Notes under the pieces: model-generated
The model's database searches: none
What the model was told of the DNA's origin: nothing
What the model saw: only the letters and a program-made list of their open reading frames with translations
Made by a program: the position numbers and the translations under genes
NCBI GenBank assembly: GCA_021789895.1
Contig: JAJYIU010000029.1
Coordinates: 1 to 42,753, forward strand
DNA from: Acidobacteriota bacterium
GTDB lineage: Bacteria > Acidobacteriota > Terriglobia > Terriglobales > SCQP01
Direction: 5' to 3'
DNA length: 42,753 nucleotides
Part shown: in pieces, positions 2,925 through 41,592 of the stretch
Position numbering within the stretch: position 1 is the first letter of the stretch
How the letters are laid out: the number at the start of each line of letters is the position of its first letter

Positions 2925-4196
2925 ATGCCTCGTCCCCGCCTGGTTGATCTCCATGAGGGCCCGCAGGTCGGTTGGCTGTTTCTCGATCTGAACGCCTACT
3001 TTGCCTCGGTCGAGCAGCAGGACCGCCCCGAGTTGCGCGGCCGCCCGATTGCCGTAGTGCCGATGATCACGGAAAACACGGTTTGCATCGCCGCCAGCTA
3101 TGAGGCCAAGCGCTTCGGCATCAAGACCGGCACCAGGCTGGCCGACGCGCAGGCGATGTGCCCCGGACTGGAGCTGGTGGCGGCCCGGCCCCGGCTTTAC
3201 GTCGAGTATCACCATGCAATCGTGGCCGCGGTGGACCGCTGCCTGCCGATCAGCGCGGTGCTGTCGGTGGACGAGATGGCCTGCGAGCTGACCGGCCGCG
3301 AGCAGGCGCTCTCGAATGCGCTGCGGCTGGCGGCAGCGCTCAAGCAGGAATTGCGCGGGGTGGGCGACACGCTGCGCTGCTCGATCGGGCTGGCGCCCAA
3401 CCGCTTTCTGGCCAAGGTGGCTTCGGATATGGAAAAACCCGACGGGCTGGTCTTCCTGTTGAAGGGCGATCTGCCGCAGGCGCTGTTCCGGCTGGCGCCG
3501 GGCGATCTGCCGGGAATCGGAACGCGGATGCAGGCGCGGCTGGAGCTGGCGGGAATCCGGACCATGCGCCAGTTGGCCGCGCTCTCGCCGGCGCGCATGC
3601 GCGCGCTGTGGGGCAGTGTGGTGGGCGAGCGCATGTGGCACTGGATTCGCGGCGCCGATTTTCACGACCCGCCACCGCCGCGGCGCAGCCTGGGGCGGCA
3701 GCACGTGCTGGCGCCGGAATTTCGCAGCCGCGAGGCGGCGCTGGAGGTGGGTTTGAAGCTGCTGCATCTGGCCGCGACCGAGCTGCGCAAGCTGGAGTTG
3801 TGGGCGGGCGGACTGGGCGTGCAGGTGGATTTCATGCGCTTTGCCGGCCAGCCCCAGCCGGGCGACCCCTATTGGGAGGCCCATACGCGCATTGCCGAAT
3901 GCCGCGACGATTTTCTGCTGCAGCGTTATGTGCGGCGCCTGTGGCGCGGCTGCCCGCCGGCGAAGCCGATTTCGGTCGGGGTCTGGCTTTACGACCTCGC
4001 CCGGGAGCGGCAGCGCACGCTGCCGCTCTTCGATGCCGCCGAGCAGCAGCGGCGCGAACTGGCCAGCGACGCCATGGATGCGCTCAACCTCAAATTCGGC
4101 CCGCAGACGGTTTATCCGGGCGGGCTGCAGGGGGTGCGCGCCGCCGCCCCGACCCGTATCTCCTTCAGCAGCATCCCGGGATTGGAGCGATTTTAA
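2925..4196 (+). CDS. Y-family DNA polymerase (DinB/ImuB-related)
   Basis: The 423-residue protein has the Y-family palm signatures. The first metal-binding strand is LFLDLNAYFASVEQQ with Asp21, and the second catalytic pair is SVDEM with Asp116-Glu117. The fingers motif IAASYEAKRFGIKTGT follows at about 55-70. A helix-hairpin-helix thumb (PGIGTRMQARLELAGI) and a little-finger region complete it. Such enzymes copy damaged templates with low fidelity. The palm reads DLN rather than the DMD of canonical Pol IV, and I see no clear clamp-binding tail, so I leave the symbol blank. The next gene, 51 bases on, encodes an abasic-site crosslinking protein, pointing to a small damage-tolerance unit. Confidence 0.85.
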   Translation: MPRPRLVDLHEGPQVGWLFLDLNAYFASVEQQDRPELRGRPIAVVPMITENTVCIAASYEAKRFGIKTGTRLADAQAMCPGLELVAARPRLYVEYHHAIVAAVDRCLPISAVLSVDEMACELTGREQALSNALRLAAALKQELRGVGDTLRCSIGLAPNRFLAKVASDMEKPDGLVFLLKGDLPQALFRLAPGDLPGIGTRMQARLELAGIRTMRQLAALSPARMRALWGSVVGERMWHWIRGADFHDPPPPRRSLGRQHVLAPEFRSREAALEVGLKLLHLAATELRKLELWAGGLGVQVDFMRFAGQPQPGDPYWEAHTRIAECRDDFLLQRYVRRLWRGCPPAKPISVGVWLYDLARERQRTLPLFDAAEQQRRELASDAMDALNLKFGPQTVYPGGLQGVRAAAPTRISFSSIPGLERF

Positions 4197-4247
4197 TTCA
4201 TTTGTTTTTCGGATGGTTTTCAGGCGATATTGCTGCAGGGTCGCGCC

Positions 4248-4901
4248 ATGTGTGGACGGTTCACCTTAGCCAAGCCGGGAGAAGCGGTCGCCGCGCATTT
4301 CCGCCTGGAGACCGCGCCGGTGCTCAGCGCCCGCTACAACATCGCCCCCACCCAGGCGGTGCTGGCGGTGCGCGCGCGTTCGGGCGGAGGACGCGAGGCC
4401 TCCGGCTTCCGCTGGGGGCTGATTCCCTCCTGGGCCCGCGGTGCGGCGAATCCAACCGCGCCGCTGATCAATGCCCGCGCCGAAGGCCTGGCCCGCAAGC
4501 CGGCCTTTCGCGAAGCCTGGCGCCAGCGCCGTTGTCTGATTCCCGCCGACGGTTTTTACGAGTGGCAGCCGGTGGAGGGGAAAAAGCAGCGCTGCTGCTG
4601 GCATATTCGGCGCCGGGATGGAGAACTGTTCGCCTTCGCCGGGCTGTGGGAACCCTGGCCGCCGGCGGTCGCGCTCCCGCCGGGGGCAGCCTCTGGCCAA
4701 AGCTGCGCCCTGATCACGACCCGGCCCAACCCGCTGGTCGCGCCGGTGCACGATCGCATGCCCGTGGTGCTCCCGCCCGAGGTTTATGCAAAATGGCTGG
4801 ATCCCGCCGCCGAGGCCGCCGCGCTCGAACCGCTGCTGCAGCCCTGGCAGGCAGATGCATGGGAACGGGTGCGGGTAGAAACTCCGCTGCCCCCGGCCTG
4901 A
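4248..4901 (+). CDS. yedK: SOS response-associated protein, HMCES/YedK abasic-site crosslinker
   Basis: The 217-residue protein begins MCGRFTL, giving the Cys2 nucleophile after methionine removal that forms the covalent link to abasic sites in single-stranded DNA. Asn75 (in LINARAEG), Glu105 (in DGFYEW) and His168 (in VHDRMPVVL) occupy the known active-site positions of the SRAP domain. I start at 4248 because the Cys must be residue 2; an ATG 18 bases upstream would bury it. It follows the Y-family polymerase directly on the same strand. The convergent pal gene lies downstream, with a hairpin between. The function is well established for the family. Confidence 0.92.
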   Translation: MCGRFTLAKPGEAVAAHFRLETAPVLSARYNIAPTQAVLAVRARSGGGREASGFRWGLIPSWARGAANPTAPLINARAEGLARKPAFREAWRQRRCLIPADGFYEWQPVEGKKQRCCWHIRRRDGELFAFAGLWEPWPPAVALPPGAASGQSCALITTRPNPLVAPVHDRMPVVLPPEVYAKWLDPAAEAAALEPLLQPWQADAWERVRVETPLPPA

Positions 4902-5006
4902 CCGTCCTGGAACGGGTACCGTGAAAGAAACCAGCGAACTCGCAGGCTGCTCCGCACCGGAGTGCGAAGCGGCCGTTTGCCCTACGAACGAGTGGCAACC
5001 GCGCCG

Positions 5007-5036
5007 GCGCTTCCGGCCTGGATCGGCCGGAAGCGC
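5007..5036. terminator. Strong hairpin between yedK and pal, probable bidirectional terminator
   Basis: GCGCTTCCGGCC at 5007-5018 and GGCCGGAAGCGC at 5025-5036 form a perfect 12-bp stem with a 6-base loop. It lies 15 bases past the pal stop on the minus strand and about 105 bases past the yedK stop on the plus strand. A T-run (5048-5052) follows 11 bases later in the plus direction; none follows directly on the minus side. Placement between convergent genes supports a terminator role. Confidence 0.55.
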
Positions 5037-5051
5037 GGCGAGGCTGTGTTT

Positions 5052-5810
5052 TTACTGGCTGGAGCCGTTATTCGACATGACCAGATGGGCGCGGCGGTTC
5101 TGCTGATAGCAATCCGACGTGGTCTCAGTGCAGAACGGCTTTTCCTTGCCATAGCTGATGGTGCGAATGCGGCTGGCATCCACCCCCAGCGCCACCAGGT
5201 ACTTGCGGGCGGCGTTGGCGCGGCGGTCGCCGAGTCCCATATTGTATTCGGCGCTGCCCCGCTGATCGCAATGGCCTTCGATGATGATATCCACATTCGG
5301 ATTTTGCTTCAGCCAATCGGCGTCGCCGACCAACGCCTGCTGGGCGTCGGGCCGGATGACCCAACTGTCGAAATCAAAAAAGGCGTCGTGGATATTCTCG
5401 CTGAACAGTTTGTCCAGCGACTGCGCCACCGGCTGCGGCGCCGGCGGCGGTGGCGGCGGCGGCTGGGCCACGGTGACCCGCACGCTGGCGTTGGCCGACT
5501 TGCCATCGGCATTGGTCGCCACCACTTCGTAATCGGTCGATTCCGTGGGCGAAACCTGCTGGGAGCCGTTGAGGTTGACGCGCGCGCCATTCAAGGTGAC
5601 CGCCACCGCATGAGTCGAGCTCCAGGTCAAGGTGCTGCTCTGCCCACGCTCGATCGCAGTGGGGTTCGCGTCAAGGTTCACCGTCGGCAGCGGCGCCGCC
5701 ACCGGCGGGGGCGTGGGTGGGGGCGGGGGTGGGGTTTTGTGGCCGCAGCCAGCCAACCAGAACAGCATGGGCAGGCTGGCGGCAGCGGCCAGCAGCCGAT
5801 TACGTTTCAT
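5052..5810 (-). CDS. pal: Pal, peptidoglycan-associated lipoprotein with an extra Ig-like domain
   Basis: The 252-residue protein has a lipoprotein signal peptide ending WLAGC (Cys22), a proline-rich linker, and a C-terminal OmpA domain (about 135-250). That domain carries the diaminopimelate-binding motif EGHCDQRGSAEYN and GDRRANAARKYL. Pal anchors the outer membrane to peptidoglycan and is moved by TolQRA and TolB during constriction. Between the linkers, about residues 45-125 form an Ig/PKD-like beta domain (LTWSSTHAVAVTLNG, then STDYEVVATN) absent from E. coli Pal. The ATG at 5810 follows GGAGG. It is the last gene of the tol cluster, 129 bases after tolB. Confidence 0.9.
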   Translation of the reverse strand: MKRNRLLAAAASLPMLFWLAGCGHKTPPPPPPTPPPVAAPLPTVNLDANPTAIERGQSSTLTWSSTHAVAVTLNGARVNLNGSQQVSPTESTDYEVVATNADGKSANASVRVTVAQPPPPPPPAPQPVAQSLDKLFSENIHDAFFDFDSWVIRPDAQQALVGDADWLKQNPNVDIIIEGHCDQRGSAEYNMGLGDRRANAARKYLVALGVDASRIRTISYGKEKPFCTETTSDCYQQNRRAHLVMSNNGSSQ

Positions 5811-5939
5811 GGAAATATCCTCCGTCGTCAAGGGCCATCATGGCCCGGGGTTGACTGCATGGATGCCGCGCCGGCCGGCGGACCCGGCCAATGCACCGCG
5901 GCTTCATTTGATACACCCTGCGAGCGCTGGAAACAGCCA

Positions 5940-7292
5940 TCAATGCTCCGACCAATTCGGCATTTCATTGCTGCCCTGCCGGCTGATCTCGGCAGGATTC
6001 GAGCCATCCGCAAGGATGGTGAACAATTGCCAGTGACCGGGGCGGCCCGAGGTAAAAACGAGATGCCGTCCGTCGGGCGCCCAGGATGGATAATCGTTTC
6101 GTTGGCCATTATGCGTCAATTGTAAGTAAGCGTGGTTAGCTAAATTCATTAAATAAATATCGTAAGCCCCGCCGTTGTTTTCCCCGCCCCCGGTGCGCCG
6201 CCAGGAAAAGGCCAGCACCTGCCCGTTGGGCGACCAGGAGGGGCTCACCGCATAGCCGCCGCTGGTCACGATCTGTTGGTTGGCGCCGTCAGCATCCATG
6301 GTATAGATCTGCGGCAGGCCGGTGCGGTCGCTTTCGAAGGCGATCTGCGCTCCGGTTTTCGGATTCCAGACCGGAGCGATATTGACGCTGTGGGAAAAGG
6401 TCAATTGCCGCATCCCGGTGCCATTGGCATTGATGACGTAGATTTCGGGGTAGCCGCTGTGATTCAGGTCGGCGGAAAAGGCCAGCTTGCTGCCGTCCGG
6501 CGACCAGGCCGGCGTGCCGATGAAGCCGTGCAGGCGCGGGAAATACAGATCATGGTGAATCAAAAGTGAATAAATCGAAATCTGCCAGGTGCCGGTGCGA
6601 TTGCTGACGAAGGCGATTTTTTCGCCATCGGGGGAAATCCGGGGCGAGTAACAGATGCTATGGAGATAGGTGATCTGCCGTGGATTGGAGCCGTCGTAAT
6701 CCATCATCCAGACTTCTTTGTGCCCGCTCCGATTGCTGATGTACGCGATATGCGTGCCGGCAATGCCCTGCCCGCCGCCTAGCGCGGCGACAATGGCGTC
6801 GGCGAATTCATGCGCCATCAGCCGCGCTTCCGTCGCCAGCGTCGGCCCGGTATAGCGCTTCCCCAGCACATAGGGCGAATTCGGCTGAGTCAGATTATAT
6901 AGATAACCTTCGACCTGCAGCACCTGGTTGACCACGGTCAGATTGCCGAACACCAGCCGCTGCGCCAGCGCCGGCGGGTTGGCCCAGGCGGCCAACGGCG
7001 CCGCGCTCAGATCGCCCGGATTGGCGGGCGCGGCGGGCGGATACAGGCTGCGGCTGACCATGATCACCAGGCCGGATTGATATAAATCGTTCCAAAGCGT
7101 TTGATTGAACACCTGCGCCAGGCTGGCCGCCTGGGCATTGCCGGCGGAAATGACAAATTGCGGCTGGGCCAGGCGCAGCTTTTTGAAACCATAAATGCTG
7201 AGGTTCAATGGCCCTTGTGCCGCCAGATGATGCGTGAAAAGTCCGGCCAGCAGTATGACGGCCGCACAGCAATGAATCGTGATTTTGCGCAT
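5940..7292 (-). CDS. tolB: TolB, periplasmic beta-propeller of the Tol-Pal system
   Basis: The 450-residue protein has a signal peptide (about residues 1-25, ending near HHLAAQG), an N-terminal alpha/beta domain, and repeated WD40-like PD40 blades. Blade motifs include IAYISNRSGHKEVWMMDYDG, SPDGEKIAFVSNRTG, SPDGSKLAFSADL and APDGRHLVFTSGR. TolB shuttles between TolA and Pal in the periplasm. I start at the ATG at 7292, directly before the signal peptide; an in-frame ATG 60 bases upstream would add a cysteine-rich, non-signal stretch. A GGAG lies about 14 bases upstream. It lies between tolA (65 bases) and pal on the same strand. Confidence 0.9.
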   Translation of the reverse strand: MRKITIHCCAAVILLAGLFTHHLAAQGPLNLSIYGFKKLRLAQPQFVISAGNAQAASLAQVFNQTLWNDLYQSGLVIMVSRSLYPPAAPANPGDLSAAPLAAWANPPALAQRLVFGNLTVVNQVLQVEGYLYNLTQPNSPYVLGKRYTGPTLATEARLMAHEFADAIVAALGGGQGIAGTHIAYISNRSGHKEVWMMDYDGSNPRQITYLHSICYSPRISPDGEKIAFVSNRTGTWQISIYSLLIHHDLYFPRLHGFIGTPAWSPDGSKLAFSADLNHSGYPEIYVINANGTGMRQLTFSHSVNIAPVWNPKTGAQIAFESDRTGLPQIYTMDADGANQQIVTSGGYAVSPSWSPNGQVLAFSWRRTGGGENNGGAYDIYLMNLANHAYLQLTHNGQRNDYPSWAPDGRHLVFTSGRPGHWQLFTILADGSNPAEISRQGSNEMPNWSEH

Positions 7293-7357
7293 CAGCAAAA
7301 TGTCTGCTCCTTTAGATGGATCGGGCTTGAAAAAGTTACAAAATTTGCACACGCCAA

Positions 7358-8170
7358 TTATTGCAACTGAAACGAGACCACCACATCCAGGCTCGAATGC
7401 GGATAGTTGGCGGGCAGGGGCAATCGTTCCGAACTCGCCATTTGCTCGACCGCGTGCAAGGCCATGCCATCCAGCGCGGGGATGCCGGTCCGGCGGTCAA
7501 ACTGAATATTCGAAATCTCGCCCGCGCGATTGATGGTGAAGGCGACATACGCCGCCCGCCCCACCGGAGTGGTGGGATCGCGATACTGCTGGCTCCAGTA
7601 AAAGCTGAGGCGGTTTCGCAATTGGTTCACATAGCCGGTGTACAACGTTCCGAAGGTCGCGTCGCCGAAGGCCATGCCGCCCCCGCCGCCGACGCCTTGG
7701 CCGGACATGCTGTAGGTAAACGAGGCCGGGCCGCCGGCGCCGTACATCACGCGCCGGTGTTGGCGGTTTCTGACGTCGGCCTGCTGCATATGGCGCAACT
7801 CGCGCAATGCCTGCCGGCGCGCCAGATCGGGAATGTGCACCGGCGACGGCAGCCGCACGGCATTCCGCCTGGGCCGCGGCGCGCGGTGCGGCATCGTGCG
7901 GGTCAGGTCGGGCATCGGATTGGCCAGACGGTTTTGGGTATTCAGCAGCGTGGGCGCGGGCATCGGTATCGAGCCGCCGGGCACCTTGGAAACCAGGTTC
8001 GCCACCAGCGCCCCGCCGGCGCCGCCGGGATGTTGGCCGCCAAAAGGAATGGTGAAGTACGCTCCCAACCAAATCCCGCCGCCCAGCAGCAACAGGTGCG
8101 CAAGGCAGGAAACCAGCAGGGTGCCGCCCCACCCGGTTTCTCCCCGCCGCGAATCTGGCGTTGTGCGCAT
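7358..8170 (-). CDS. tolA: TolA-like / TonB C-terminal domain energy transducer
   Basis: The 270-residue protein has one N-terminal membrane helix (about residues 17-37), a basic and proline-containing middle, a glycine-rich stretch, and a C-terminal TonB/TolA-type domain. The latter includes YVNQLRNRLSFYW and AAYVAFTINRAGEISNIQF from about residue 175. In this place it should link the TolQR motor to TolB and Pal. It is much shorter than E. coli TolA and lacks the long helical rod, so its reach across the periplasm must differ. It follows tolR by 9 bases. Identification rests on the TonB domain plus operon position. Confidence 0.82.
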   Translation of the reverse strand: MRTTPDSRRGETGWGGTLLVSCLAHLLLLGGGIWLGAYFTIPFGGQHPGGAGGALVANLVSKVPGGSIPMPAPTLLNTQNRLANPMPDLTRTMPHRAPRPRRNAVRLPSPVHIPDLARRQALRELRHMQQADVRNRQHRRVMYGAGGPASFTYSMSGQGVGGGGGMAFGDATFGTLYTGYVNQLRNRLSFYWSQQYRDPTTPVGRAAYVAFTINRAGEISNIQFDRRTGIPALDGMALHAVEQMASSERLPLPANYPHSSLDVVVSFQLQ

Positions 8171-29803: not shown

Positions 29804-31477
29804 TCAGGGCCCCAGCAGAGGGGAGACGTGCAGGTGCAGGGAGGAGAGCAGGGTCCAATCGGCGCGGCGGTAGCGCACCGCCGCCACCTGCCAGGCGATT
29901 TCCGCCTGCAGCAGAGCGGTTTCGGCGTCGCTCAACTGCGACTGCTGCTGCAAATACTCAAACAGGGTGGTGGTGCCGAGCAGGTATTTCTGGTGGGCGG
30001 CATCCACGTTCTTGCGGGTCAGGTCGAGCGCCACGCGCGCGGCCTGGATTTCCTCGTCGGCCATGCGCAGCTCGGTATCGGCCTGGCGCACCGATTGCGT
30101 CACCGACTGCTGCTGGTCGCGCAACTGCGCCCGGTCGCGGCTGTGCTGAATGTAGGAGTTGGCGAGCGAGGCGGCGGCGGCGCTGTTGCGGAAGGGCAGA
30201 TTGAGCTGCAGCGAAAAGCCGTAAAAGGGTGCGTGAAAGCGGAAAAGCTGGCCGAGGGAATCGCTCAGCCCGCCCGGCTGGAGCGTGCCGCCGGCGCCCA
30301 GCAGCGAGCTGGCGGGAATCTGGTCGCCGCCCAGGCCGCTGGAACCGTAGAGGCCGCTGAGGTCGAGTTCGGGGCGCAGGCGGTTGCGGGCGGCGGTTTC
30401 GCTGAGATCGTCGAGCAGCAGTTGACGGCGGGCGGCGAGCAGCTCGGGGCGGCGACCGAGCGCGGCGGCGAGCGCCTGGCTGAGCGGCAGGCGCGGCGAG
30501 GCGCCGGGCTGCGGCTCGGGCGCGTCTTCCAGGGTGATGGGCAGGTTGCGCAGCTTCGGATTGAGATCGGCGCCGATGAAGCGCCGCAGGCTGTCGAGCG
30601 ATTCCTCATACGCGGCCTGGGCCTGCAGCAGGGCCAGCTTGGTGCGCGCCACCTGGGCCTGCGACTGGTAAATATCCATCGGCGCCAGCGCGCCCAGCTT
30701 CAGCGCCCGCTGGTCGTGGTGGTAAGAGCGCTGCGCCAGCGCCAGCGCCGACTGCTGCACCTGGATCGCCTGGCGCGCGCCGGATGCGTTCCAATAGGCC
30801 TCGGCGGCGCTGACCAGCAGGTCGGCGATCTGCACCCGGCTCTGGTCGCTGGCCACCAGCACGCCGCCCTGCGCCTGCCGCAGCGGCTCCTTCAGCAGCA
30901 GATTGCCGCGATTGCGCAGCAGCGGCTCAGTGATCGAGAGCGTCAGGCCGGTGGCGATGGAGGGGTTGAAGAGATTGAACTGGCTGTTGGTGGAATAACG
31001 GTTGCTGGTGAAACCGGCGGTGATGTTCTGGCCGGTGGGCAGCGCCTGTGTGAAATTGATGCTGGAAGACTGTCCCAGGCTGTTGAGGGTGGAAGCGCCG
31101 CCGAGCTGTGTGTATTGCGGCTCCAGCTTGCGCTGGCTGTTGAAGGCCAGGCTGAGCTGGGGATCGAAGGGAGCGCGGGCGGAGAGCACCTGCGCCGCCG
31201 CCGAACTGACTTGCAGCCGGTCGAGATGAATCTGGGGGTCGTTGCGCAGCACCAGCAGCAGGAATTGCCGCAGGCTGAGCTCCAGTCCGTGCTTGCCTAC
31301 GCGCCGGCTGAGCCCGGCTATGGGACTCAGGCGCAGCGGCGGCAACTGAAAATGCCGCGCGAGATAGTTGGGCAGCGCCTGGCCGGCCGCGGGCAGGCTC
31401 AAAGCCAGAGCCGCCGCGAGCGCCAGCCAGCCGCGATGGCGTTTCCGGCTTCCAATTTTCTCCAATTTCAGGTTCAC
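29804..31477 (-). CDS. TolC-family outer-membrane efflux protein
   Basis: The 557-residue protein has a signal peptide (about 1-34) and two OEP (TolC) repeats. It shows long Ala/Gln-rich helices, LSLRQFLLLVLRNDPQIHLDR near the start, repeated QAQAAYEESLDSLRR-like helices, and a C-terminal QQSQLSDAETALLQAEIAW. It forms the outer-membrane channel for the upstream exporter. The start is a GTG at 31477 with AAGGAA 7-8 bases upstream. It is the last gene of the operon, 65 bases after the permease. Confidence 0.9.
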   Translation of the reverse strand: MNLKLEKIGSRKRHRGWLALAAALALSLPAAGQALPNYLARHFQLPPLRLSPIAGLSRRVGKHGLELSLRQFLLLVLRNDPQIHLDRLQVSSAAAQVLSARAPFDPQLSLAFNSQRKLEPQYTQLGGASTLNSLGQSSSINFTQALPTGQNITAGFTSNRYSTNSQFNLFNPSIATGLTLSITEPLLRNRGNLLLKEPLRQAQGGVLVASDQSRVQIADLLVSAAEAYWNASGARQAIQVQQSALALAQRSYHHDQRALKLGALAPMDIYQSQAQVARTKLALLQAQAAYEESLDSLRRFIGADLNPKLRNLPITLEDAPEPQPGASPRLPLSQALAAALGRRPELLAARRQLLLDDLSETAARNRLRPELDLSGLYGSSGLGGDQIPASSLLGAGGTLQPGGLSDSLGQLFRFHAPFYGFSLQLNLPFRNSAAAASLANSYIQHSRDRAQLRDQQQSVTQSVRQADTELRMADEEIQAARVALDLTRKNVDAAHQKYLLGTTTLFEYLQQQSQLSDAETALLQAEIAWQVAAVRYRRADWTLLSSLHLHVSPLLGP

Positions 31478-31542
31478 TTTCGTTCCTTAATAACTTCTGC
31501 TTGTGCTTGCTTTAGCTCGGCCCTGCCGGCCGTGAAAAATGG

Positions 31543-32838
31543 TCATTCATAGCGCAGGGCCTCGATCGGATCAATGCGGGCGGCCTTGCGCGCGGGATAA
31601 AGGCCGAAGATCACGCCGACGGCGGCGGAGACGCCGAAGGCCACCAGGATGGAGGGGAGGGTGACGATGGTCTGCCAGCCCGCGGACCAGGCAATCAGGC
31701 GCGAGAGCAGCAGGCCGAAGACGACGCCCATCAATCCGCCGGACAGGGAAATCAGCAGCGACTCGGAGAGGAACTGGCGCAGGATATCGCCGCGGCGGGC
31801 GCCGGTGGCGCGGCGCACGCCGATTTCGCGGGTGCGTTCGAGCACGGTGGCGAGGACGATATTCATGATGCCGATGCCGCCGACCAGCAGCGAAATGGCG
31901 GCGATGGCGACCATCACCAGAGTAAATATGCGCTGGGTGCGTTCCTGCGCGGCCAGCAGCGCGGCGGGAGCGACGACGCGGTAATCGTGAGCGCCGTGAT
32001 GGCTGGTGGCGAGAATGGCCTCGGCCACGGCGGAAGCGCGCAGCACGTTGGCGGAGGGCTGGAGGGCGATATCCACCCCGTCGAGCGGGTCTTTGAAGCT
32101 GAAGTCGGCATTCCAGATGCGGTGCTCGAAGGCGTTAAACGGGATATAAATCGCGCGGTCGCCGCCGCCGGCGCTGTTGGGGCCGGAGCCGAGCACGCCG
32201 ATGACGCGGAACCAGACGTCGTTGATCTTGATCCATCTGCCGAGGGCGTTGCGATAGCCCAGCATTTGCACCTTGATCGCCGAGCCTAGAACGCAGTCGG
32301 CGGCGCCGGCGGCATCGTCGGTGGCGTCGAAAAAGCGGCCTTGGGCGACCTGCAGATGGTGTATGCGGGCGTAAACCGGACTGACGCCATAGACTTCCGG
32401 CCAGGCGCCCTGCGGGCGCGGCAGCAGCGCCGCCGGGCGCATTTCGCGCCGCGGGGTAATCCAGCGCACGCCCGGCACGTTCGCCTGGAGCATCCGCAAA
32501 TCGCTCTGGTTCAGGCCATGCGAGGTCTGGCGGCGCTGTTGGAGCTGCTGCTGGCTGGTGGCGGGGATGGAATCAATCAGCAGGTTGCGGACGCCGAGCT
32601 GTTCAATCAGGCGCAGGGACTGGGCGCGGGCGCCGGCGCCGATGGAGAGCATGGCGATGACGGCGCCCACGCCGAAGATCATGCCCAGGGCGGTGAGCAC
32701 GGTGCGCACTTTCTGCGCGCGCAGGTTCTGCCAGGCCAGGCCCAGGTCGGCGCTGAAGCGCTCCCAGTCGCGCCAGGCGGGGGGCATGGATCCCGGGCGG
32801 CGCGGCGCCGGGCCGGATTGGAGCGTCACCGGGCTCAT
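31543..32838 (-). CDS. MacB-type ABC transporter permease without ATPase domain
   Basis: The 431-residue protein carries a MacB periplasmic core plus FtsX-like permease. An N-terminal helix has VRTVLTALGMIFGVGAVIAM. A periplasmic domain follows from about 70 to 290, and three C-terminal helices include ISLLVGGIGIMNIVLATVL and the coupling motif REIGVRRATGARRGDI. E. coli MacB (648 residues) has an N-terminal ATPase that this protein lacks, and no separate ATPase gene lies in this operon. It must therefore borrow an ATPase or work otherwise. Its ATG overlaps the upstream adaptor stop by 4 bases (ATGA). Confidence 0.9.
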   Translation of the reverse strand: MSPVTLQSGPAPRRPGSMPPAWRDWERFSADLGLAWQNLRAQKVRTVLTALGMIFGVGAVIAMLSIGAGARAQSLRLIEQLGVRNLLIDSIPATSQQQLQQRRQTSHGLNQSDLRMLQANVPGVRWITPRREMRPAALLPRPQGAWPEVYGVSPVYARIHHLQVAQGRFFDATDDAAGAADCVLGSAIKVQMLGYRNALGRWIKINDVWFRVIGVLGSGPNSAGGGDRAIYIPFNAFEHRIWNADFSFKDPLDGVDIALQPSANVLRASAVAEAILATSHHGAHDYRVVAPAALLAAQERTQRIFTLVMVAIAAISLLVGGIGIMNIVLATVLERTREIGVRRATGARRGDILRQFLSESLLISLSGGLMGVVFGLLLSRLIAWSAGWQTIVTLPSILVAFGVSAAVGVIFGLYPARKAARIDPIEALRYE

Positions 32839-34145
32839 GGCGTGGCTCCGCCCGCCGCTTGGGGATTGACCAGGGCGATAGAGTCGCCGGCCTGCAGGCC
32901 GGTCAGCGCGACGCGGGTTTCGCTGCGCAGCAGCACTTTCACCGGCTGGCGCAGGAAACGGCCCTGGCGGCGGAGATAGACATAGGCGCTCCCGCCGGTG
33001 CCGAAGACCGCCTCCGCCGGCGCCCAGAGCACATGCGGCATCTGCTTGACCGTAATCCGGGCTTCGGCGCTCATGCCCGGCCGCAATCCCGGAACCTGGT
33101 CGAGCAGCGCCAGGGTGCAATGAAACTGGCGCCGCCAGGGCCGGCCGGACACCCCGCCGACGTTGATCACCCTGGCCTTGATGGTGCGTCCAGGGCGCGC
33201 GATCACGCTTACCACCGCCTGTTCGCCCGCCGCCAGATAGGCACGGTTGGCTTCGCCCAGGGTGGCGTTCAAGCGCAGTTGGGAAAGGTCGGGAACCTCC
33301 GCCACCACGTTGCCGGGATAGACCTGGTCGCCGAGGTGATAGCGCGGAAAGGTCATGCCGGGGAAATAAAAATACTGGTTGTGCAGGTTGGGCTGGATGG
33401 AAAGATAGCCGGCGCGATGCGCGCGCAGCTCCATCGCGGCGATGTTGTGGCGCGCCAGCTCGACTTTCAATTTCGCTTCGTGCGCGGCGGCCTGCTGGAT
33501 GCGGATTTCTGCCAGGCCGCTTTGGCGCTGGCCGGCGAGATCGCCCTGGAGCTGGACCAACTGCGCTTGCGCTGCGCTCAGTTTCAGCAGGTTGGCGCGG
33601 GCGTCGAGCGCCGCCAGGATGGGGTTGCGGCGCACCTCGAGCTGGGCCAGCCGCACCTGGTCGCGGGCATTGAGCAGGGCGTAGCGGTCTTCCTCCGCCT
33701 GGGCCTGCATGGCGGCGCGGGCGGAGGCGATCTGGGCTTGCGCCTGGGCAACCGAGTTTTCCGCCTGCAGCAACTGGTACTGCTGCTGGGCGGCGCTGAA
33801 GCGGGCCACGACTTCGCCGGGATGCACCAGCGAGCCATCGGGCAGCAGATAGCTGAGGTACATGCCTCCGCCGCCGATGCCCGGCGCGGCCATGCGGTCG
33901 GGGTTTTCGCCGCCCAGCGTGCCGTTGGCATATAAGACCACCCGCACCCTGCCGTAGGCGACGCGAAAGACGGGCAGCGAAACCGCCGGGGTGGGCTGAA
34001 GCCGGCGCCAGCTCCAGACCCCCAGCGCCGCCGCCCCCGCCAGCAGCAGCGCCGCCAGGGCAAGCCAGAACCGCCAGCGCCGTCGTCGCGGGAAAGGGCG
34101 TTGCGGGGTAAGCGGGGTTAACGCGGGTTGCGGCTGGGCGCTCAT
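32835..34145 (-). CDS. HlyD/MacA-like periplasmic adaptor 1
   Basis: The 436-residue protein has a basic N-terminus, one membrane anchor (about 27-47), and the lipoyl/barrel-sandwich and coiled-coil hairpin layout of membrane fusion proteins. The hairpin is rich in Ala, Gln and Leu (about 115-230) and is followed by a beta-barrel with RPGRTIKARVINVGG. It should link the permease to the TolC protein. It is one of three such genes in a row, with 4-base overlaps at both ends, showing tight coupling to the permease and to the previous adaptor. Confidence 0.88.
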   Translation of the reverse strand: MSAQPQPALTPLTPQRPFPRRRRWRFWLALAALLLAGAAALGVWSWRRLQPTPAVSLPVFRVAYGRVRVVLYANGTLGGENPDRMAAPGIGGGGMYLSYLLPDGSLVHPGEVVARFSAAQQQYQLLQAENSVAQAQAQIASARAAMQAQAEEDRYALLNARDQVRLAQLEVRRNPILAALDARANLLKLSAAQAQLVQLQGDLAGQRQSGLAEIRIQQAAAHEAKLKVELARHNIAAMELRAHRAGYLSIQPNLHNQYFYFPGMTFPRYHLGDQVYPGNVVAEVPDLSQLRLNATLGEANRAYLAAGEQAVVSVIARPGRTIKARVINVGGVSGRPWRRQFHCTLALLDQVPGLRPGMSAEARITVKQMPHVLWAPAEAVFGTGGSAYVYLRRQGRFLRQPVKVLLRSETRVALTGLQAGDSIALVNPQAAGGATP

Positions 34146-35452
34146 GTGCGGGCTCCAGCGCGGACGCCGGCGCCAGGCGTGGGCATCGCCGGCTTGCCGG
34201 CGGCTGCCGGGGCTTTCGCGCCCGGCTGCTGGAGCGCCACTGTCGCGCCGGCGGCGAGTCCGTCAATCGCGATTTCCTGGGGATTGCGTCCCACCACGCG
34301 AATGGGATACGGCTGGAAGCCGCGGCCGTGGCGCAGATAAACCACGGTTTTACCGTTCAGGATGAACAGCGCCCGGGCGGGCAGAATCAAGGCGTGCGGC
34401 AGCCGGCGGGTAATGATTTCCAGGTCGCCTTTCATCAGCGGCCGCAGCCGCGGATCGGGATGCCGGATCGAGGCGTAGGCGATAAAGAAGCGCGGCGGCG
34501 GCCAGCCCTGATTGAAAACCACTTCGGTCAGCGGCGAGATGGCGTACAGACGCCCGTGAAACTGGCGGTCGGGCAAGGCATTGATGTGCATGCGCGCGGT
34601 TTCGCCGACCTGGAGCTGTCCGCGGTCGGCCTGGACCAGGTTGCCGCGCATCTCGAGCGTGGAAAGCACCGGAATTTCCGCAATGATGGCGCCGGAAAAC
34701 ACCTGATCGCCCACCTGGTAGGTTTGCGGGTTGGCGAACGAGGCGCGGTTGTTGCTCATGTAGGTGATGACGCCGGAGACGGGAGCGCGGAGCACGGTTT
34801 GAGCAAAAATGGCCTGGCGGCGCTGCAGCTTGGCCTGGGCCAGCATCAGCGCTTCGCGATGCCGGGTGATGCTGGCCGCCGAGGATTGCTGGTGCTTGAC
34901 CACGGTGGCCTGCTCGACCTGCAGCGCGGCTTCAGCGGTGCGCAGCGCCAGGCGGGCTTCGGCGCCGTCAATCGGGCTGAGAATGGCTTGCCGGGCGGCT
35001 TCGAGCCGGGCTTCTTCCACCGCTACCTTGGCCTGGGCCAGCCCCAGCCGGTCCTGTTCCGCCAACAGCCGGGCCTGGGCACGGCTCTGGCGCAATTCCG
35101 CCCCGGCGCTGTTCACTTCCGCCTGCTGCTCCCGCATTTGTTCCTGCAGTTCCGAGCTGTCGAAGCGGATCACCACCTGCCCGGCGCGCACCGGCTTGCC
35201 GGCGGACGCCAGCCACATGATATGCAGGTCCTGGGCATTGTGCGGAGCGCGCAGGTACGCCGCCTGCCGCACCCAGAGCTGGCCATCGCAGCGCACGTAT
35301 TCGAGCAGTTCGCCGCGCCGCACCACCGCGGTCGGCAGCGAGGCATCCGTCCCGCCGCCGAAATGCCGCCATCCCCACCAGCCGCCGCCCCCCGCGGCCA
35401 ACACCAGGAGGGCGATGAGCACCGGCTTCCAGGCTGGACCCAGGGTCTTCAT
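34142..35452 (-). CDS. HlyD/MacA-like periplasmic adaptor 2
   Basis: The 436-residue protein starts with a membrane anchor (about 10-29). It then has a barrel-sandwich half, RAGQVVIRFDSSELQEQM, a long coiled hairpin (about 105-210), the second half APVSGVITYMSN, and a barrel domain. It is not a close copy of the neighbouring adaptor; the shared features are fold-level. It overlaps adaptor 1 by 4 bases. Its distinct job beside two other adaptors is unknown. Confidence 0.88.
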   Translation of the reverse strand: MKTLGPAWKPVLIALLVLAAGGGGWWGWRHFGGGTDASLPTAVVRRGELLEYVRCDGQLWVRQAAYLRAPHNAQDLHIMWLASAGKPVRAGQVVIRFDSSELQEQMREQQAEVNSAGAELRQSRAQARLLAEQDRLGLAQAKVAVEEARLEAARQAILSPIDGAEARLALRTAEAALQVEQATVVKHQQSSAASITRHREALMLAQAKLQRRQAIFAQTVLRAPVSGVITYMSNNRASFANPQTYQVGDQVFSGAIIAEIPVLSTLEMRGNLVQADRGQLQVGETARMHINALPDRQFHGRLYAISPLTEVVFNQGWPPPRFFIAYASIRHPDPRLRPLMKGDLEIITRRLPHALILPARALFILNGKTVVYLRHGRGFQPYPIRVVGRNPQEIAIDGLAAGATVALQQPGAKAPAAAGKPAMPTPGAGVRAGART

Positions 35453-35480
35453 CTACGGCTCTCCGCGCCGCGCGCGCGTC

Positions 35481-36734
35481 TCATTGCGCGCCTCCCGGCG
35501 GCGGCAGCAGCGGGGTCGAGCCATCCACGCCGCGCAGCAAAACGCCATGGCTGTCGAAGCCGGCCACCACCACCGGCCGGCGCTGCGCCTGCCCGTTTTG
35601 CCGCACCCAGACATACGACGCTCCGTCCGGCGCGTATGCAACCAGATCGCGCGGCGCCAGCCAGCCGGAACGCGGCGGAATGTGAATCGTCACCTCGCAG
35701 GTCAGGTCGGGCAGCAGCCGCGGATCTTTCTCCAGCAGTTCGAAATTGGCGCCGAAATTGCGAATGGGGTTGTCGGCCGAGCCGGTGGCGACCGGGCTCA
35801 GGCTGAGCAGGCGGGCGGCAAAATGCACGCCGGCGTAGGCATCGAGCTGCACCACGCCCGGAGTGCCGGGCGCGAGCGCGGAAAAATCGGCTTCGCTGAG
35901 CTGCACCCGCACGCGCATGCCGCTGGGACTGAAAACTTCGAGCAGCTTGATGCCATGCCAGACCTGCGTGCCCGGCGCCAGGGTGCCGATCCAGGGCGGG
36001 GCGGTGTACGCCAGCATGCCGTCCATCGGCGAGCGCACCACCAGTTTGCGGCTGTCGGATTCGGCGCGCTGCCAATCCAGCTTCTGGTTATCGCGCTGCA
36101 GCTCCAACACCCGCAGGTTGGCCGCGGCTTTGGCGGATTCCAGCGGGTTGGAGCGCTCGAGGCTGGCGACATGGGCGCGGGCGTCGGCCAATTCCACGCG
36201 ATTTTCATCCACCTGGATTTGGCTGAGGATGGGCGCTTTGCGCAACTCCAGCGCCGCCTTGGCGGCGTCCGCCTCGGCCTGAGCCAACTGCTGCGCGCGG
36301 GCGGCGGCGTCGGCCGCGTTCTGGGCGCGCTGCTTGCGCACCTGCGCCGCCAGATCGATGTATTGCGCATAGGCGCTGCGCGCGCGCACTTCCAGGTCGG
36401 TGAGGTCGAAGGCGACCAGCAAATCGCCTTTTTTGACCCGCGCTCCGTTGGGCGCCAATTGCGTAATCGTGAGCTGGGGAGAAAATTGCGACAGCGACGG
36501 CGCCAGAATCGGCGCTTCCTGCACCGGCACGATCACGCCGGTGGCGCGGATGGTGCGGCTGACCTGGCCGCGGCGAGGATAGACGGCGTGTGGGGACGCC
36601 GCTTTGGCCACCAGCGGCGACGTATGCCCGCCGCAGCCGGCTGCCAGCAGCGCCAGCAACAGCGCGCCCGCAGCCGCCGGGTTTTTACACCGGTGGCGGA
36701 GGGCATGGCGGAATTGACTCTGTTTTCCGGGCAT
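35481..36734 (-). CDS. HlyD/MacA-like adaptor 3, probable lipoprotein
   Basis: The 417-residue protein has a basic start, a hydrophobic stretch ending LAAGC (lipobox cysteine near residue 33), then adaptor features. These are VKKGDLLVAFDLTDLEVRA, an Ala-rich hairpin (about 110-205), VRSPMDGMLAYTA and a barrel domain. A lipid anchor would distinguish it from the two membrane-anchored adaptors that follow. I start at ATG 36734 ahead of the lipoprotein signal. Longer open starts to 36923 would place about 63 unlikely residues first. It is the first gene of the operon, 28 bases before adaptor 2. Confidence 0.85.
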   Translation of the reverse strand: MPGKQSQFRHALRHRCKNPAAAGALLLALLAAGCGGHTSPLVAKAASPHAVYPRRGQVSRTIRATGVIVPVQEAPILAPSLSQFSPQLTITQLAPNGARVKKGDLLVAFDLTDLEVRARSAYAQYIDLAAQVRKQRAQNAADAAARAQQLAQAEADAAKAALELRKAPILSQIQVDENRVELADARAHVASLERSNPLESAKAAANLRVLELQRDNQKLDWQRAESDSRKLVVRSPMDGMLAYTAPPWIGTLAPGTQVWHGIKLLEVFSPSGMRVRVQLSEADFSALAPGTPGVVQLDAYAGVHFAARLLSLSPVATGSADNPIRNFGANFELLEKDPRLLPDLTCEVTIHIPPRSGWLAPRDLVAYAPDGASYVWVRQNGQAQRRPVVVAGFDSHGVLLRGVDGSTPLLPPPGGAQ

Positions 36735-37053
36735 TTTTCTGGGAAGCCGGCGTGGTGTACCGAATGATGATGCTAAGTACTTTACCAAAGCTACAATGCC
36801 GGAAATGCCGCGGTTTGGCAACCCTGAACACGGTTTGCGCCTTATGGCGAAGCGTACAGTGGCGCACGAATGACGCCAAGCCGGTTCCGGGCAGGCGCCG
36901 GAATCGTCGGCCTGAGTTGTCATTCATCCGCCGGCAGCCGCCGGCAACTGGCGCCGGCGCGGCGGCTCGACTACAATGCTGTCTTCGCCTGCCGTTCGCT
37001 TCCGGTTTCTACCGTTAAATCGCGCCTTTGCGGCGGGCGCCAGGAGCCAGCTT
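36735..37053. other. Divergent intergenic region between the export operon and the M1 aminopeptidase
   Basis: This 319-base gap holds no supported gene. On the plus side a TACAAT (36972-36977) lies 76 bases before the aminopeptidase ATG, without a clear -35. Its middle (36920-36965) is a dense run of GCCGGC-type inverted repeats. On the minus side an AT-richer stretch (36765-36800) probably holds the operon promoter, but no convincing hexamer pair with 16-18 spacing was found. Confidence 0.45.
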
Positions 37054-39684
37054 ATGACCCGCAGCCCTAAAAAAACATTTGAGCGCCGGCGCACACGGCT
37101 GTTGCGAGCTGCCGGGCAAGCCTGCCTGCTGGCGCTCTGCGCCCTGCCGCTTGCCGCTCAGGCGCCGGGGCCAAAAGCCCGCGTGTTTGGCAACCCGTTG
37201 ATCTGGCGATGGCCTCCGGGAAAAACCTATCACGTGCTCAATTACAAGCTGCGGCTGCATTTCGACGAGCCGAAAGGCGAAGTCTTCGGCGTTGAAACGA
37301 TCACGCTGACCCCCTTTCGCAACCGTTTTCACGAATTGACGCTGGACAGTTCCGGATTGGCGATTGACCGGATTACGCTGGCCGGGCGCGCGCCTCGCTC
37401 GCTCGCCTTTACCGCGCACGATCCGCATCTGGCCATCACCCTGCCGCGGGCGTATGCGGCCGGCAGCGTGCTCAAGCTGCGGATCGTGTATCACGGCTTT
37501 CCCAAAACCGGCCTGATCTTCATCAATCCCAATTCGTTTTATCCGAAGCGGCCGCGCGAGGTCTGGTCGCAGGGCGAGCCGGAAGACAATCATTACTGGT
37601 TTCCCTGCTGGGATTATCCCAACGATAAAGCCACCAGCGAGACCATCACCACCGTGCCGGCGGGGCAGTCGGTGGTTTCCAATGGACGCCTGGCGAAGGT
37701 GACGCGGCGCGGCGGCGAGGTCACTTACGACTGGGTGGAGAGCGTGCCCCACAGCTCCTATCTGATCTCGATCGCGGTGGGCCCGTGGGCGCGCTTTACC
37801 CAGCACCTGGGCAAGCTGCCGGTGGAAATTTTCGTGCCCAATTACGTCAGCCGGGCGCGCGCGCTGCGCTCCTTCGGCCTGACGCCCGAGATGATCGCCT
37901 GGTATGAGCAGGAAACCGGCGTGGCCTACCCGTATGGCAAGTACGCCCAGACCGCGGTGCACAACTTCACCGAAGGCGGGATGGAAAACATCAGCGCCAC
38001 CACCCAGACCGAGTGGACGCTGCACGATGCCCGCGCCGAGCAGGATTACAGCAGCCAGGGGCTGGCGGCGCACGAGCTCGCCCACCAATGGTTTGGCGAC
38101 CTGGTGACCACGCGCGACTGGGCCGACATCTGGCTGAACGAAGGCTTTGCCACCTTCATGGCCGCCACCTGGGCCGGGCATCACGACGGCGGCGACGCCT
38201 ACCGCTACCAGATTTACCAGGACCAGCGCGCCGCCCGCTTCGAAGACCTGAACCGCTATCGCCGCCCGATCGTGGATTATCACTACAACTATCCCATGCA
38301 GATGTTCGACTCGACCACCTATCCCAAGGGGGCGGCGGTGCTCGACATGCTGCGCTATGTGCTGGGCGACCGGCTGTTCTGGGGCTCGCTGCGCCATTAT
38401 CTGGAAACGCATCGCGCCGGCAACGTGGACACGCACGACTTGATGGAAGCTATACGCGAGACCAGCGGGCGCGGGCTCGACTGGTTTTTCCACGAGTGGG
38501 TGTTCCGCGGCGGGTTTCCCGAATACGCGGTCGGGGCGCACTACCACGCCGCCACTCACATGGAAGTGATCGAGGTGCGGCAGACGCAGAAGCGCGACGC
38601 GGTGACGCCGCTGTTCCGCATGCCGGTGGAGCTGGCCTTCTACGGCGCTCCGGGGCAGGCGCACACGCAGACGGTCGAAGTGGCGCATCGCGACCAAACC
38701 TTCTATGTGCCGCTGGGGTTCGACCCCCGCATCGTGGATTTCGACCCGCAGGACCGCATCTACAAGCAACTGGATTACACCCCGCCGGTCGAGCAGTTGC
38801 TGGCGCAGGTGCGCACCGACCCGGCGATGATGAGCCGGTTATGGGCGGCGCAGCAGTTGGGGCGGCGGGAAGCCGGCCAGCCCGCCACCTCCGGCAACGC
38901 CGTCGCGGCGCTCGGCGCGGCGTTGTTGCACGACCGCTTCTGGGCGGTGCGGGCCGCCGCCGCCAACGCGCTGGCGGCGATCGGCGGCGATCCGGCCAAA
39001 GCCGCGCTGCTGGCCGGGCTCCACGACCGGAAAAGCAGCGTGCGGGCGGCGGTGGCCGACGCCCTGGGGCGCTTTGTGGCGCAGGATCCGGCGGTGTTTC
39101 AGACACTGGCCGCGCGCATGAACCACGACCCCAGCTATGCGGTCGAGGCCTCGGCGGCGCGCAGCCTGGGCGCTTCGCATTTGCCCGGCGCGGCGCCGGC
39201 GCTGCTGGCGGCGGCGCGCAGCGCCACCTCGATTTACGTGCAAACCGGCCTGCTGGCGGCGCTGGCCGATACCCGGGATGCCGCGGCCGTGCCGCTGCTG
39301 CTGGCCGACGCGCGGCGCGGGCAGCCGATGCGGCTGCGGCTGACGGCGCTGGCGCTGCTGCCGCGCTTCAAGCGCGTGCTCAAGCCGGAACAGACGCGGC
39401 CGCTGGTCGAAGCGGCGCTCGATTCCAGCTTTTCCTTTCTCCAGGGCGCGGCCATGAACGATGCCGCGGCGCTGAACCTGACCGCGCTCAAGCCGCGAAT
39501 TCAAAACCTGGCCGTCAGTCTGCCCGAGGCCGCCGAGCGCAGCGCGGCGCGGCGCGCGCTGGCGGCGTTCGAGGCTAAAAAACCGGCCGCGGCCCATCCC
39601 GCGCTCAGCCAGTTGCAGCGGCTGGAGCGGCGGGTGCGGGAGCTGGAAAAGCAGGTGCAGGCGCTGCAGAAGAAAAAGCCGTAG
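37054..39684 (+). CDS. Secreted M1-family aminopeptidase with C-terminal HEAT repeats
   Basis: The 876-residue protein has a signal peptide (about 15-36), a beta-rich N-terminal domain, and the M1 catalytic domain. GGMEN occupies the GAMEN exopeptidase position (308-312), and HELAHQW has zinc ligands His340 and His344. The third ligand Glu363 follows in NEGFATF at the standard 18-residue gap. From about residue 600, Ala/Leu/Arg-rich helices form HEAT-like repeats, such as DRFWAVRAAAANALAAIGG and RKSSVRAAVADALGRF. A coiled-coil tail ends it. It should trim N-terminal residues from peptides in the periplasm or outside. The ATG follows CAGGAGCC. Confidence 0.93.
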   Translation: MTRSPKKTFERRRTRLLRAAGQACLLALCALPLAAQAPGPKARVFGNPLIWRWPPGKTYHVLNYKLRLHFDEPKGEVFGVETITLTPFRNRFHELTLDSSGLAIDRITLAGRAPRSLAFTAHDPHLAITLPRAYAAGSVLKLRIVYHGFPKTGLIFINPNSFYPKRPREVWSQGEPEDNHYWFPCWDYPNDKATSETITTVPAGQSVVSNGRLAKVTRRGGEVTYDWVESVPHSSYLISIAVGPWARFTQHLGKLPVEIFVPNYVSRARALRSFGLTPEMIAWYEQETGVAYPYGKYAQTAVHNFTEGGMENISATTQTEWTLHDARAEQDYSSQGLAAHELAHQWFGDLVTTRDWADIWLNEGFATFMAATWAGHHDGGDAYRYQIYQDQRAARFEDLNRYRRPIVDYHYNYPMQMFDSTTYPKGAAVLDMLRYVLGDRLFWGSLRHYLETHRAGNVDTHDLMEAIRETSGRGLDWFFHEWVFRGGFPEYAVGAHYHAATHMEVIEVRQTQKRDAVTPLFRMPVELAFYGAPGQAHTQTVEVAHRDQTFYVPLGFDPRIVDFDPQDRIYKQLDYTPPVEQLLAQVRTDPAMMSRLWAAQQLGRREAGQPATSGNAVAALGAALLHDRFWAVRAAAANALAAIGGDPAKAALLAGLHDRKSSVRAAVADALGRFVAQDPAVFQTLAARMNHDPSYAVEASAARSLGASHLPGAAPALLAAARSATSIYVQTGLLAALADTRDAAAVPLLLADARRGQPMRLRLTALALLPRFKRVLKPEQTRPLVEAALDSSFSFLQGAAMNDAAALNLTALKPRIQNLAVSLPEAAERSAARRALAAFEAKKPAAAHPALSQLQRLERRVRELEKQVQALQKKKP

Positions 39685-39895: not shown

Positions 39896-40672
39896 CTATT
39901 TCAAGTCGCGCAGCTCGAGAATGAGGCCGGCGAGGGCGAGCAGGATGAGGGAATAGAAGACGGCGTAGAGGGCATCCCAGCCGAGCAGGGCGGGGGCGGG
40001 GGGCTGGAAGTGGGAGGCGGCGGTGGCGAGGTTGAGGGCGGAGAAGTCGGGCACCAGGTAGGCGACGCCCAATGCCAGCCAGCGCCCCGGGCCGGGGTGG
40101 GCGGCGGCGCCCAGGCCGCGCAGGTCGCCGGCGAAGTTGCCGATCAGGAACAGCGCCAGGCTGAAGGCGGCGGCCAGCACCGGCGAGGAAAAGCTGGAAA
40201 ACAACAGCGCCAGGGCGGTGAGCAGCGCCAGGGCGAGGAAGATGGTCAGCCCGGAGGCGAGCAGCGCGCTTTCGCCGGTCCGCCAGGCCGGATGCAGCAG
40301 TGCCACGGCGATCAGCAGCGCGGCCAGCATCAGGCCGGTATTGAGCGCCAGGGCGGCGAGCAGGCCGAGGTATTTCCCCATCAGGAACTGGCGGCGGCGC
40401 ACCGGGCGGGCGAGCAGGGTGTAGAGCGTCCGCCGCTCGATCTCTTTGGCCACGAGTTGAATGCCGAGGAAGATGGCGATCACCACGCCGAACAGGGTAA
40501 TGGTGAAGAGGCCGAAGTTGACCAGGGCCGAGGCCGAGATGCCGAACGACATCTGGCTGAAGAGCAGCCCGGCGCCGGCGAGCAGCACGGCGAAGGCCAC
40601 CAGCGAGAGCAGTATGCGGTCGCGAATGGCCTCGCGGAAGCTGTTGCGGGCGACGCTCAGGACCGGGCTCAA
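39896..40672 (-). CDS. ABC-2 type transporter permease (TTG start)
   Basis: The 258-residue protein has about six membrane helices and the ABC-2 permease pattern. This includes an amphipathic NSFREAIRDRILLSL start, IQLVAKEIERRTLYTLLARPVRR (here shortened) and a C-terminal LILLALAGLILELRDLK. The start is TTG at 40672-40670, supported by AAGGAGG 8 bases upstream and a 3-base overlap with the ATPase stop codon; no ATG fits. Its partner is the preceding ATPase. The substrate is unknown; similar pairs export drugs, lipids or polysaccharide parts. The longer open frame to 40984 reads through the ATPase and is not real. Confidence 0.87.
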   Translation of the reverse strand: MSPVLSVARNSFREAIRDRILLSLVAFAVLLAGAGLLFSQMSFGISASALVNFGLFTITLFGVVIAIFLGIQLVAKEIERRTLYTLLARPVRRRQFLMGKYLGLLAALALNTGLMLAALLIAVALLHPAWRTGESALLASGLTIFLALALLTALALLFSSFSSPVLAAAFSLALFLIGNFAGDLRGLGAAAHPGPGRWLALGVAYLVPDFSALNLATAASHFQPPAPALLGWDALYAVFYSLILLALAGLILELRDLK

Positions 40673-41592
40673 GGCGCGACCTCCTTGCCGGGGCGGCCGG
40701 TGAAGAGCTGATCCAGGCCGCGGCGGCGGGGTTCCAGGGCCAGCAATTCGGCCCCGGCGAGGTGGAGCGCCGCCAGCAGATCCCAGAGCTGGGGGCGGGC
40801 AACCAGCGCGCGCGAGGAGCCGTCGGGCAGCGGCTCGACGCCGGTGAGCGGCACGGCGAAGGGACGGGGCGAGCGCCAGCGGACTTCCAGTTCGTCGTCG
40901 GCGCCGGGCTCGGCGGCGGTCAACTCCTCGAGCGGCCCCAGGCGGCGCAGGCGTCCGCGATCGAGGACCGCCACCCGGTCGCAAAGCTGTTCGGCGTCGC
41001 TGAGGATGTGGGTGGAAAAAAAGATGGTGCGGCCGCGGCGCTTCAGCTCCAGCATCAACTCGCGCACCAGCCCGCGGCCGAGCGGATCGAGGCCGCTCAT
41101 CGGCTCATCCAGAATCAGCAGCTCGGGATCGTGCAGTATCGCCTGCGCCAGCCCGATGCGCTGCAACATGCCCTTGGAACATTTGCGCAGCGCCAGGCCG
41201 GCGTGCTCGTGCATCTCCACCCGCTCCAGCGCCGAGGCCACCGAGCGGGCCAGATCGGCGCCGCGCAGCCCGCTCAAACGGCCATAGTATTCGAGCAGCT
41301 CGCGGCAGCTCAGGTAATCGTAGAAATAAGGATTTTCCGGCAGGTAGCCGATGCGCGCCAGGCGCTCGCCCGGCGGCGCGCCCAGCAGCCGCGCCGCGCC
41401 GGCGGTGGGCCGGATGAGGCCCATCAGCAGTTTCAGGGTAGTGGTCTTGCCGGCGCCGTTGGGTCCGAGAAAGCCGAAAATCTCGCCCGCTTCAACGCTC
41501 AGCGTCAGCCGGTCGAGCGCGCGCCGGGGGCGGCGGCGCCAGAAGCCGGCGAGGTAGTCCTTGGTGAGTTCCTGGCACTCGATAACAGGCAT
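40669..41592 (-). CDS. ABC transporter ATP-binding protein
   Basis: The 307-residue protein has Walker A GPNGAGKT (43-50), a signature in the variant form SKGMLQ (139-144), Walker B LLILDEP (158-164), and FFSTHILSD as the H-loop region. The C-terminal 80 residues form an accessory domain. This matches ATPases of the ABC-2 group, where SKGM replaces SGGQ. It is coupled to the permease, whose TTG overlaps its stop. An ATG at 41592 precedes the conserved domain. I do not assign a substrate. Confidence 0.92.

Follow-up and report, generated by a model that had tools for sequence, protein, structure and literature searches.

Among described systems comparable with the locus analysed here, MacAB-TolC (5gko, 5nik) combines a MacB permease fold with a periplasmic core, a MacA-type adaptor fold and a TolC-family protein in a single operon with one adaptor gene, and each MacB monomer touches three MacA protomers non-equivalently (PMC5985334). 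TriABC-OpmH, a proton-driven RND pump of P. aeruginosa, has two distinct, non-interchangeable adaptors, TriA and TriB, which assemble with the RND trimer as 3:(3+3):3 (PMC13328181). LolCDE has MacB-type topology with its permease and ATPase split, lacks adaptors and TolC, and has a heterodimeric permease. The ADOPs (TIGR03434), acidobacterial MacB/FtsX-type permeases duplicated into proteins of 800-1000 aa, are as a class not known to have ATPases. The operon described here is a variant of the MacAB-TolC type and shares the parts listed for that system, but departs from it in adaptor number and in the placement of the nucleotide-binding domain (NBD): it has three distinct adaptor genes in conserved order instead of one, and the NBD is neither fused to the permease nor encoded nearby, either here or in ~60 relatives. 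As in TriABC-OpmH, one transporter comes with at least two distinct adaptor genes, which are jointly conserved; however, the transporter is a MacB-type permease and the adaptors number three. The permease resembles ADOPs in having no adjacent ATPase, but is a single 431-aa unit accompanied by adaptors and TolC, and it scores 123.7 bits against TIGR03434 (cut-off 622.3). Against the LolC/E family (TIGR02212) it scores 40 bits (cut-off 362).

The window, that is, the whole stretch of DNA analysed, is a complete 42,753-nt contig (G000:C9) of a 3.75 Mb soil-type genome of the class Terriglobia (Acidobacteriota), and contains the following features.

35481-36734, minus strand: A3, first adaptor (HlyD/MacA-like periplasmic adaptor), 417 aa, lipobox LLAAGC
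34142-35452, minus strand: A2, second adaptor, 436 aa, N-terminal hydrophobic anchor
32835-34145, minus strand: A1, third adaptor, 436 aa, N-terminal hydrophobic anchor
31543-32838, minus strand: MacB-type permease, 431 aa, MacB_PCD and FtsX domains, no NBD
29804-31477, minus strand: TolC-family outer membrane factor, 557 aa, GTG start
36976-39684, plus strand: M1 aminopeptidase with C-terminal HEAT repeats (PF01433, PF13646), divergent neighbour
39896-41592: ABC-2 type (DrrA-like) ATPase with its permease, not related to the operon

Open reading frames and Pfam confirmed the five minus-strand genes of the preliminary description, namely three adaptors, a MacB-type permease and a TolC-family protein. 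Its 4-base overlaps hold at two of the four junctions, A2/A1 and A1/permease (ATGA in both), but not at A3/A2 or permease/TolC, which are separated by 28 and 65 bp, respectively. HlyD_D23/HlyD_3 domains were found in all three adaptors (A1 below the gathering score), with PF16576/PF13437 and TIGR01730 (E=1.8e-22) in A3, PF16576 in A2 and TIGR01730 (E=5.4e-21) in A1. The permease matches PF12704 (E=1.1e-35) and PF02687 (E=4.7e-21), and the TolC-family protein matches OEP (PF02321, E=1e-30) and TIGR01844. No ABC_tran domain was detected by Pfam in any of the five genes, which bears out the earlier reading of a 431-residue permease without NBD in an operon without ATPase, and no MacB-type ATPase lies within the window. 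The ATPase closest to the operon within the window (40669-41592) was ruled out as a partner, being DrrA-type with its own permease. The M1 aminopeptidase gene adjoins the operon in five genomes, all of the same family, and stands outside the conserved module; clustering of neighbours around operon loci gave no conserved neighbours hinting at substrate.

AlphaFold2 (AF2) monomer models of the permease and A2 agree with these assignments, whereas A1 and A3 were assigned by sequence alone. The top Foldseek match of the permease model is MacB (5gko_A, E=2.9e-24), and the protein has the four transmembrane helices and periplasmic core domain of MacB (PF12704 and PF02687, AF2/Foldseek). The A2 model (pLDDT 84.7) best matches MacA chains of MacAB-TolC (9qgy_G and 5nik_D), with a two-helix hairpin at about residues 100-217; the MacA-type layout of hairpin, lipoyl, beta-barrel and membrane-proximal domains is found in A2 by model and in A1 and A3 by sequence. 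A lipoprotein A3 was rejected as a general feature, since no more than 21/54 core loci showed a recognisable anchor of this kind. In one sub-clade (L120, L124, L131-L134, L249, L250 and L252), A1 and A3 carry insertions of ~100-280 residues, those of A1 lying near the border of the beta-barrel and membrane-proximal domains.

The gene order is widely conserved. Orthologues of the permease (59-89% identity) are present in 13/13 other genomes of the family, and every family locus with enough contig has the order A3-A2-A1-permease, usually with TolC next and with no adjoining ATPase. Several family members have the operon twice (L041/L051 in G002, L043/L053 in G005, L042/L052 in G007 and L047/L055 in G010); in G002 and G005, TolC is present in one copy and absent from the other. 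In a class sample, 208/399 genomes have a permease match at E<1e-62; this cut-off is loose enough to include some canonical MacB permeases of ~36-40% identity as well. All three adaptors were found in 38 of 40 class loci examined and an ATPase in none; of the two exceptions, L095 runs into the end of its contig and L134 has two recognised adaptors. Across the phylum, 92/396 genomes have a match at E<1e-72, and A3-A2-A1-permease(-TolC) occurs in most of 40 loci. Because this order recurs across the phylum, the arrangement is more than chance. In total, it is shared by ~60 loci in the permease clade that includes the window, none with an adjacent ATPase. An ATPase gene directly upstream in close relatives, which the preliminary description had raised as a sign of local deletion, was looked for and is absent from family and class loci, and local ATPase deletion is thus ruled out. 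A seemingly triple-adaptor fusion in L184 (G710, 3910-7716) was rejected, as its 1268-residue open frame runs through A3, an out-of-frame A2 and A1, with an apparent frameshift near the A3 end.

More distant relatives differ in the ATPase. Four acidobacterial loci (L189, L191, L194 and L201; 44-48% identity) encode a MacB-type ATPase right after the permease. Among the named genomes scanned, four Shewanella loci, Pseudoalteromonas, Psychrobium and Candidatus Aminicenantes have ATPase-A-A-A-permease; Proteiniphilum has A-A-A-permease-ATPase-TolC, and Latescibacterota has ATPase-A-A-permease. The Shewanella, Pseudoalteromonas, Psychrobium, Aminicenantes and Proteiniphilum operons resemble the present one in their three tandem adaptors and related permease (36-42% identity), but have a MacB-type ATPase at the operon start or end. 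In the permease tree, one clade holds 91 ATPase-minus and 4 ATPase-plus rows; ATPase-plus permeases join those of Acidobacteriota in one clade (support 99), except those of Proteiniphilum and Latescibacterota, which fall outside, and no ATPase-plus permease belongs to the window's own sub-clade. Within the same taxonomic order, canonical MacB operons are arranged A-ATPase-permease, with a single adaptor. Some Bacteroidota loci (for example, L266, L274, L296 and L310) have related permeases, a single recognised adaptor and no recognised adjacent ATPase, often with a weak TolC match or an ORF of similar size next. Of the many well-described homologous operons that the preliminary description had allowed for, the architecture does recur; a published description of a three-adaptor MacB-type pump, including the operons of the five genera and candidate lineages named above, was not found in the open-access papers searched, where searches on ADOPs likewise gave nothing relevant.

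The permease probably needs an ATPase supplied in trans, judging from its sequence. It retains the coupling-helix sequence ERTREIGVRRATGAR; the coupling segment ERTREIGIRRAxGAR agrees with the one in ATPase-bearing MacB permeases, and its mean top-residue frequency is 0.80, versus 0.62 for the permease as a whole. For the putative ATP-driven export through TolC, as in MacAB-TolC, this conserved helix is indirect support. Because some more distant three-adaptor operons carry a MacB-type ATPase, the ATPase is presumably in trans here. The absence of an ATPase throughout the window's clade would also fit a permease that no longer uses ATP, in an operon acting as an ATP-independent conduit; this is highly improbable, given that the NBD-docking segment is more conserved than the remaining protein and that sister operons carry MacB-type ATPases. 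The best candidate motors are a MacB-type ATPase (G000:C47:19806-20540) and a lone LolD-like ATPase (G000:C34:12061-12756). The former belongs to an adaptor-ATPase-permease-permease operon (L040:3295-7935) and groups with the ATPases of several multi-adaptor operons at moderate support (83-89), with those of Shewanella and Aminicenantes staying outside the group. The LolD-like ATPase (L138:3362-4060) might be a shared motor for orphan permeases; its placement in a Lol operon was rejected, as its Pfam-tested neighbours in a few relatives are not permeases (SpoIIE-type, ThiI, tRNA synthetase, AIR synthase-related and others). The preliminary description had proposed searching related genomes for the five-gene order and a co-occurring orphan ATPase: the order proved widespread in relatives, and in phylogenetic profiles the C47 ATPase (at ≥70% identity in 60/60 order relatives) and the C34 ATPase (matches in 58/60) occur irrespective of permease presence. 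With the two present in almost all genomes of the order, co-occurrence cannot choose between them.

Fifteen ADOP-like duplicated MacB/FtsX-type permease frames, counted as ORFs of 812-1010 aa that have two FtsX matches and lack an adjoining ABC_tran match, were found in the genome (contigs C49, C66, C55, C76, C6, C4, C26, C47, C13, C24 and C79). Given these orphan permeases, a missing ATPase is locally ordinary. Of the arrangement that had been called unusual, it is the three adaptors, rather than the missing ATPase, that remain so. The same 15 permeases could suggest that A1-A3 are a pool also serving them. This is quite unlikely: the adaptors are always tied to one permease lineage, and order relatives without this permease still have up to dozens of other MacB-type permeases. 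The earlier idea of service to different permeases has no support.

As had been noted from the sequence, the three adaptors differ from one another: A1, A2 and A3 of one operon share just ~25-31% identity, and each position forms its own clade. Across 78 loci (54 core and 24 distant), six such clades have support of 99-100, with no swaps inside either major clade; the window's A3 falls in a3_core and its A1 in a1_core, each with support 99. Domain-wise comparison showed no clear concentration of the divergence in the membrane-proximal domain. The core triplet, (a3,(a1,a2)), groups apart from the distant/gamma triplet. In AU tests constraining the core and distant adaptors of a position to one clade, this was rejected for a1 (p=0.016) and a2 (p=0.002) and not for a3 (p=0.117), so at the A1 and A2 positions, though not at A3, a single origin of the triplet is rejected, and the triplets are possibly of separate origin. 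Either the three adaptors arose more than once or paralogues were homogenised within operons; as the trees used a simple model and short search, this is a lead.

At the sampled loci, all three adaptors have hairpins of 124 residues in the core clade and of 125 in the distant/gamma clade; across the 78 loci, three-adaptor operons span 124-129. Single-adaptor operons, which come mostly from the same taxonomic order, have lengths of 94, 108, 122, 136 or 150. A3-A2 fusions occur in L199, L201, L222 and L205, on at least two branches of the permease tree, and join A3 with A2 only; by a simple hydrophobicity scan, the L199 and L222 fusions each have one N-terminal anchor, whereas none was recognised in L201 and L205. 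Of the three ideas about the adaptors in the preliminary description, a mixed hexamer is the best supported, by the position clades, shared hairpin length, A3-A2 fusions and strict linkage to one permease. Staged substrate handover, with A1, A2 and A3 acting in sequence instead of in one ring, is barely credible: it draws on adaptor divergence and nothing specific, and would not predict three equal hairpins, each full-length and accompanied by an N-terminal anchor, as parallel ring members would have. Separate homohexamers, alternating on the same permease and TolC with differing substrate ranges or regulation, are also unlikely. Within-operon identity of ~25-31% would permit homomeric assembly, and MacA is itself a homohexamer (PMC5985334). 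However, the adaptors are translationally linked in an order fixed across the class, loss of an adaptor is documented at no locus (in L134, two are recognised), hairpin lengths are identical and A3-A2 fusions are ill-suited to separate homomers.

A ring mixing A1, A2 and A3 is thus the reading we consider probable, by analogy and from sequence features; it draws on the position clades, equal hairpins, A3-A2 fusions and the position counts of MacB and TriABC. Against this reading, shared ancestry or within-operon homogenisation would likewise yield equal hairpins and clade-wise adaptor trees, and the 124/125 hairpin difference follows clade. The rejected core-distant orthology of A1 and A2, the restriction of fusions to A3-A2 and the divergence not clearly centred on the membrane-proximal domain also count against it. 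In the proposed MacAB-TolC-like tripartite exporter, the permease homodimer would dock an ATPase encoded elsewhere in the genome, and a six-membered 2+2+2 ring would be assembled from three different adaptors rather than one, with A1, A2 and A3 each present twice. The three adaptor kinds would occupy three non-equivalent positions around each permease monomer, so that adaptor kinds would equal the positions per transporter protomer, two in RND trimers such as TriABC and three in the MacB dimer. Equal hairpins would build a single channel reaching the operon's TolC protein, and, by mechanotransmission as in MacB, ATP-driven opening and closing of the permease periplasmic domains would push periplasmic substrate through it. 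Taken jointly, a mixed ring and a permease with a trans ATPase are slightly favoured, the two claims not being independent. It is a more tentative possibility that 2+2+2 hexamer MacB-type exporters evolved more than once (in core Acidobacteriota, the distant Acidobacteriota/gammaproteobacterial group and Bacteroidota), with a shared unlinked ATPase powering many orphan permeases in Acidobacteriota.

Tripartite pumps join unlike symmetries, with a two-fold MacB dimer, six adaptors and a TolC of three-fold symmetry. A natural pump with three fixed adaptor kinds would reveal the place and role of each adaptor and make the symmetry mismatch testable adaptor by adaptor. In Acidobacteriota, an abundant soil phylum, the absence of an ATPase here hints that the many orphan permeases share motors, an idea that can be tested as well. 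The conserved gene set, found across the class and widespread in the phylum, suggests a mixed-connector pump driven by a motor protein whose gene lies elsewhere in the genome.
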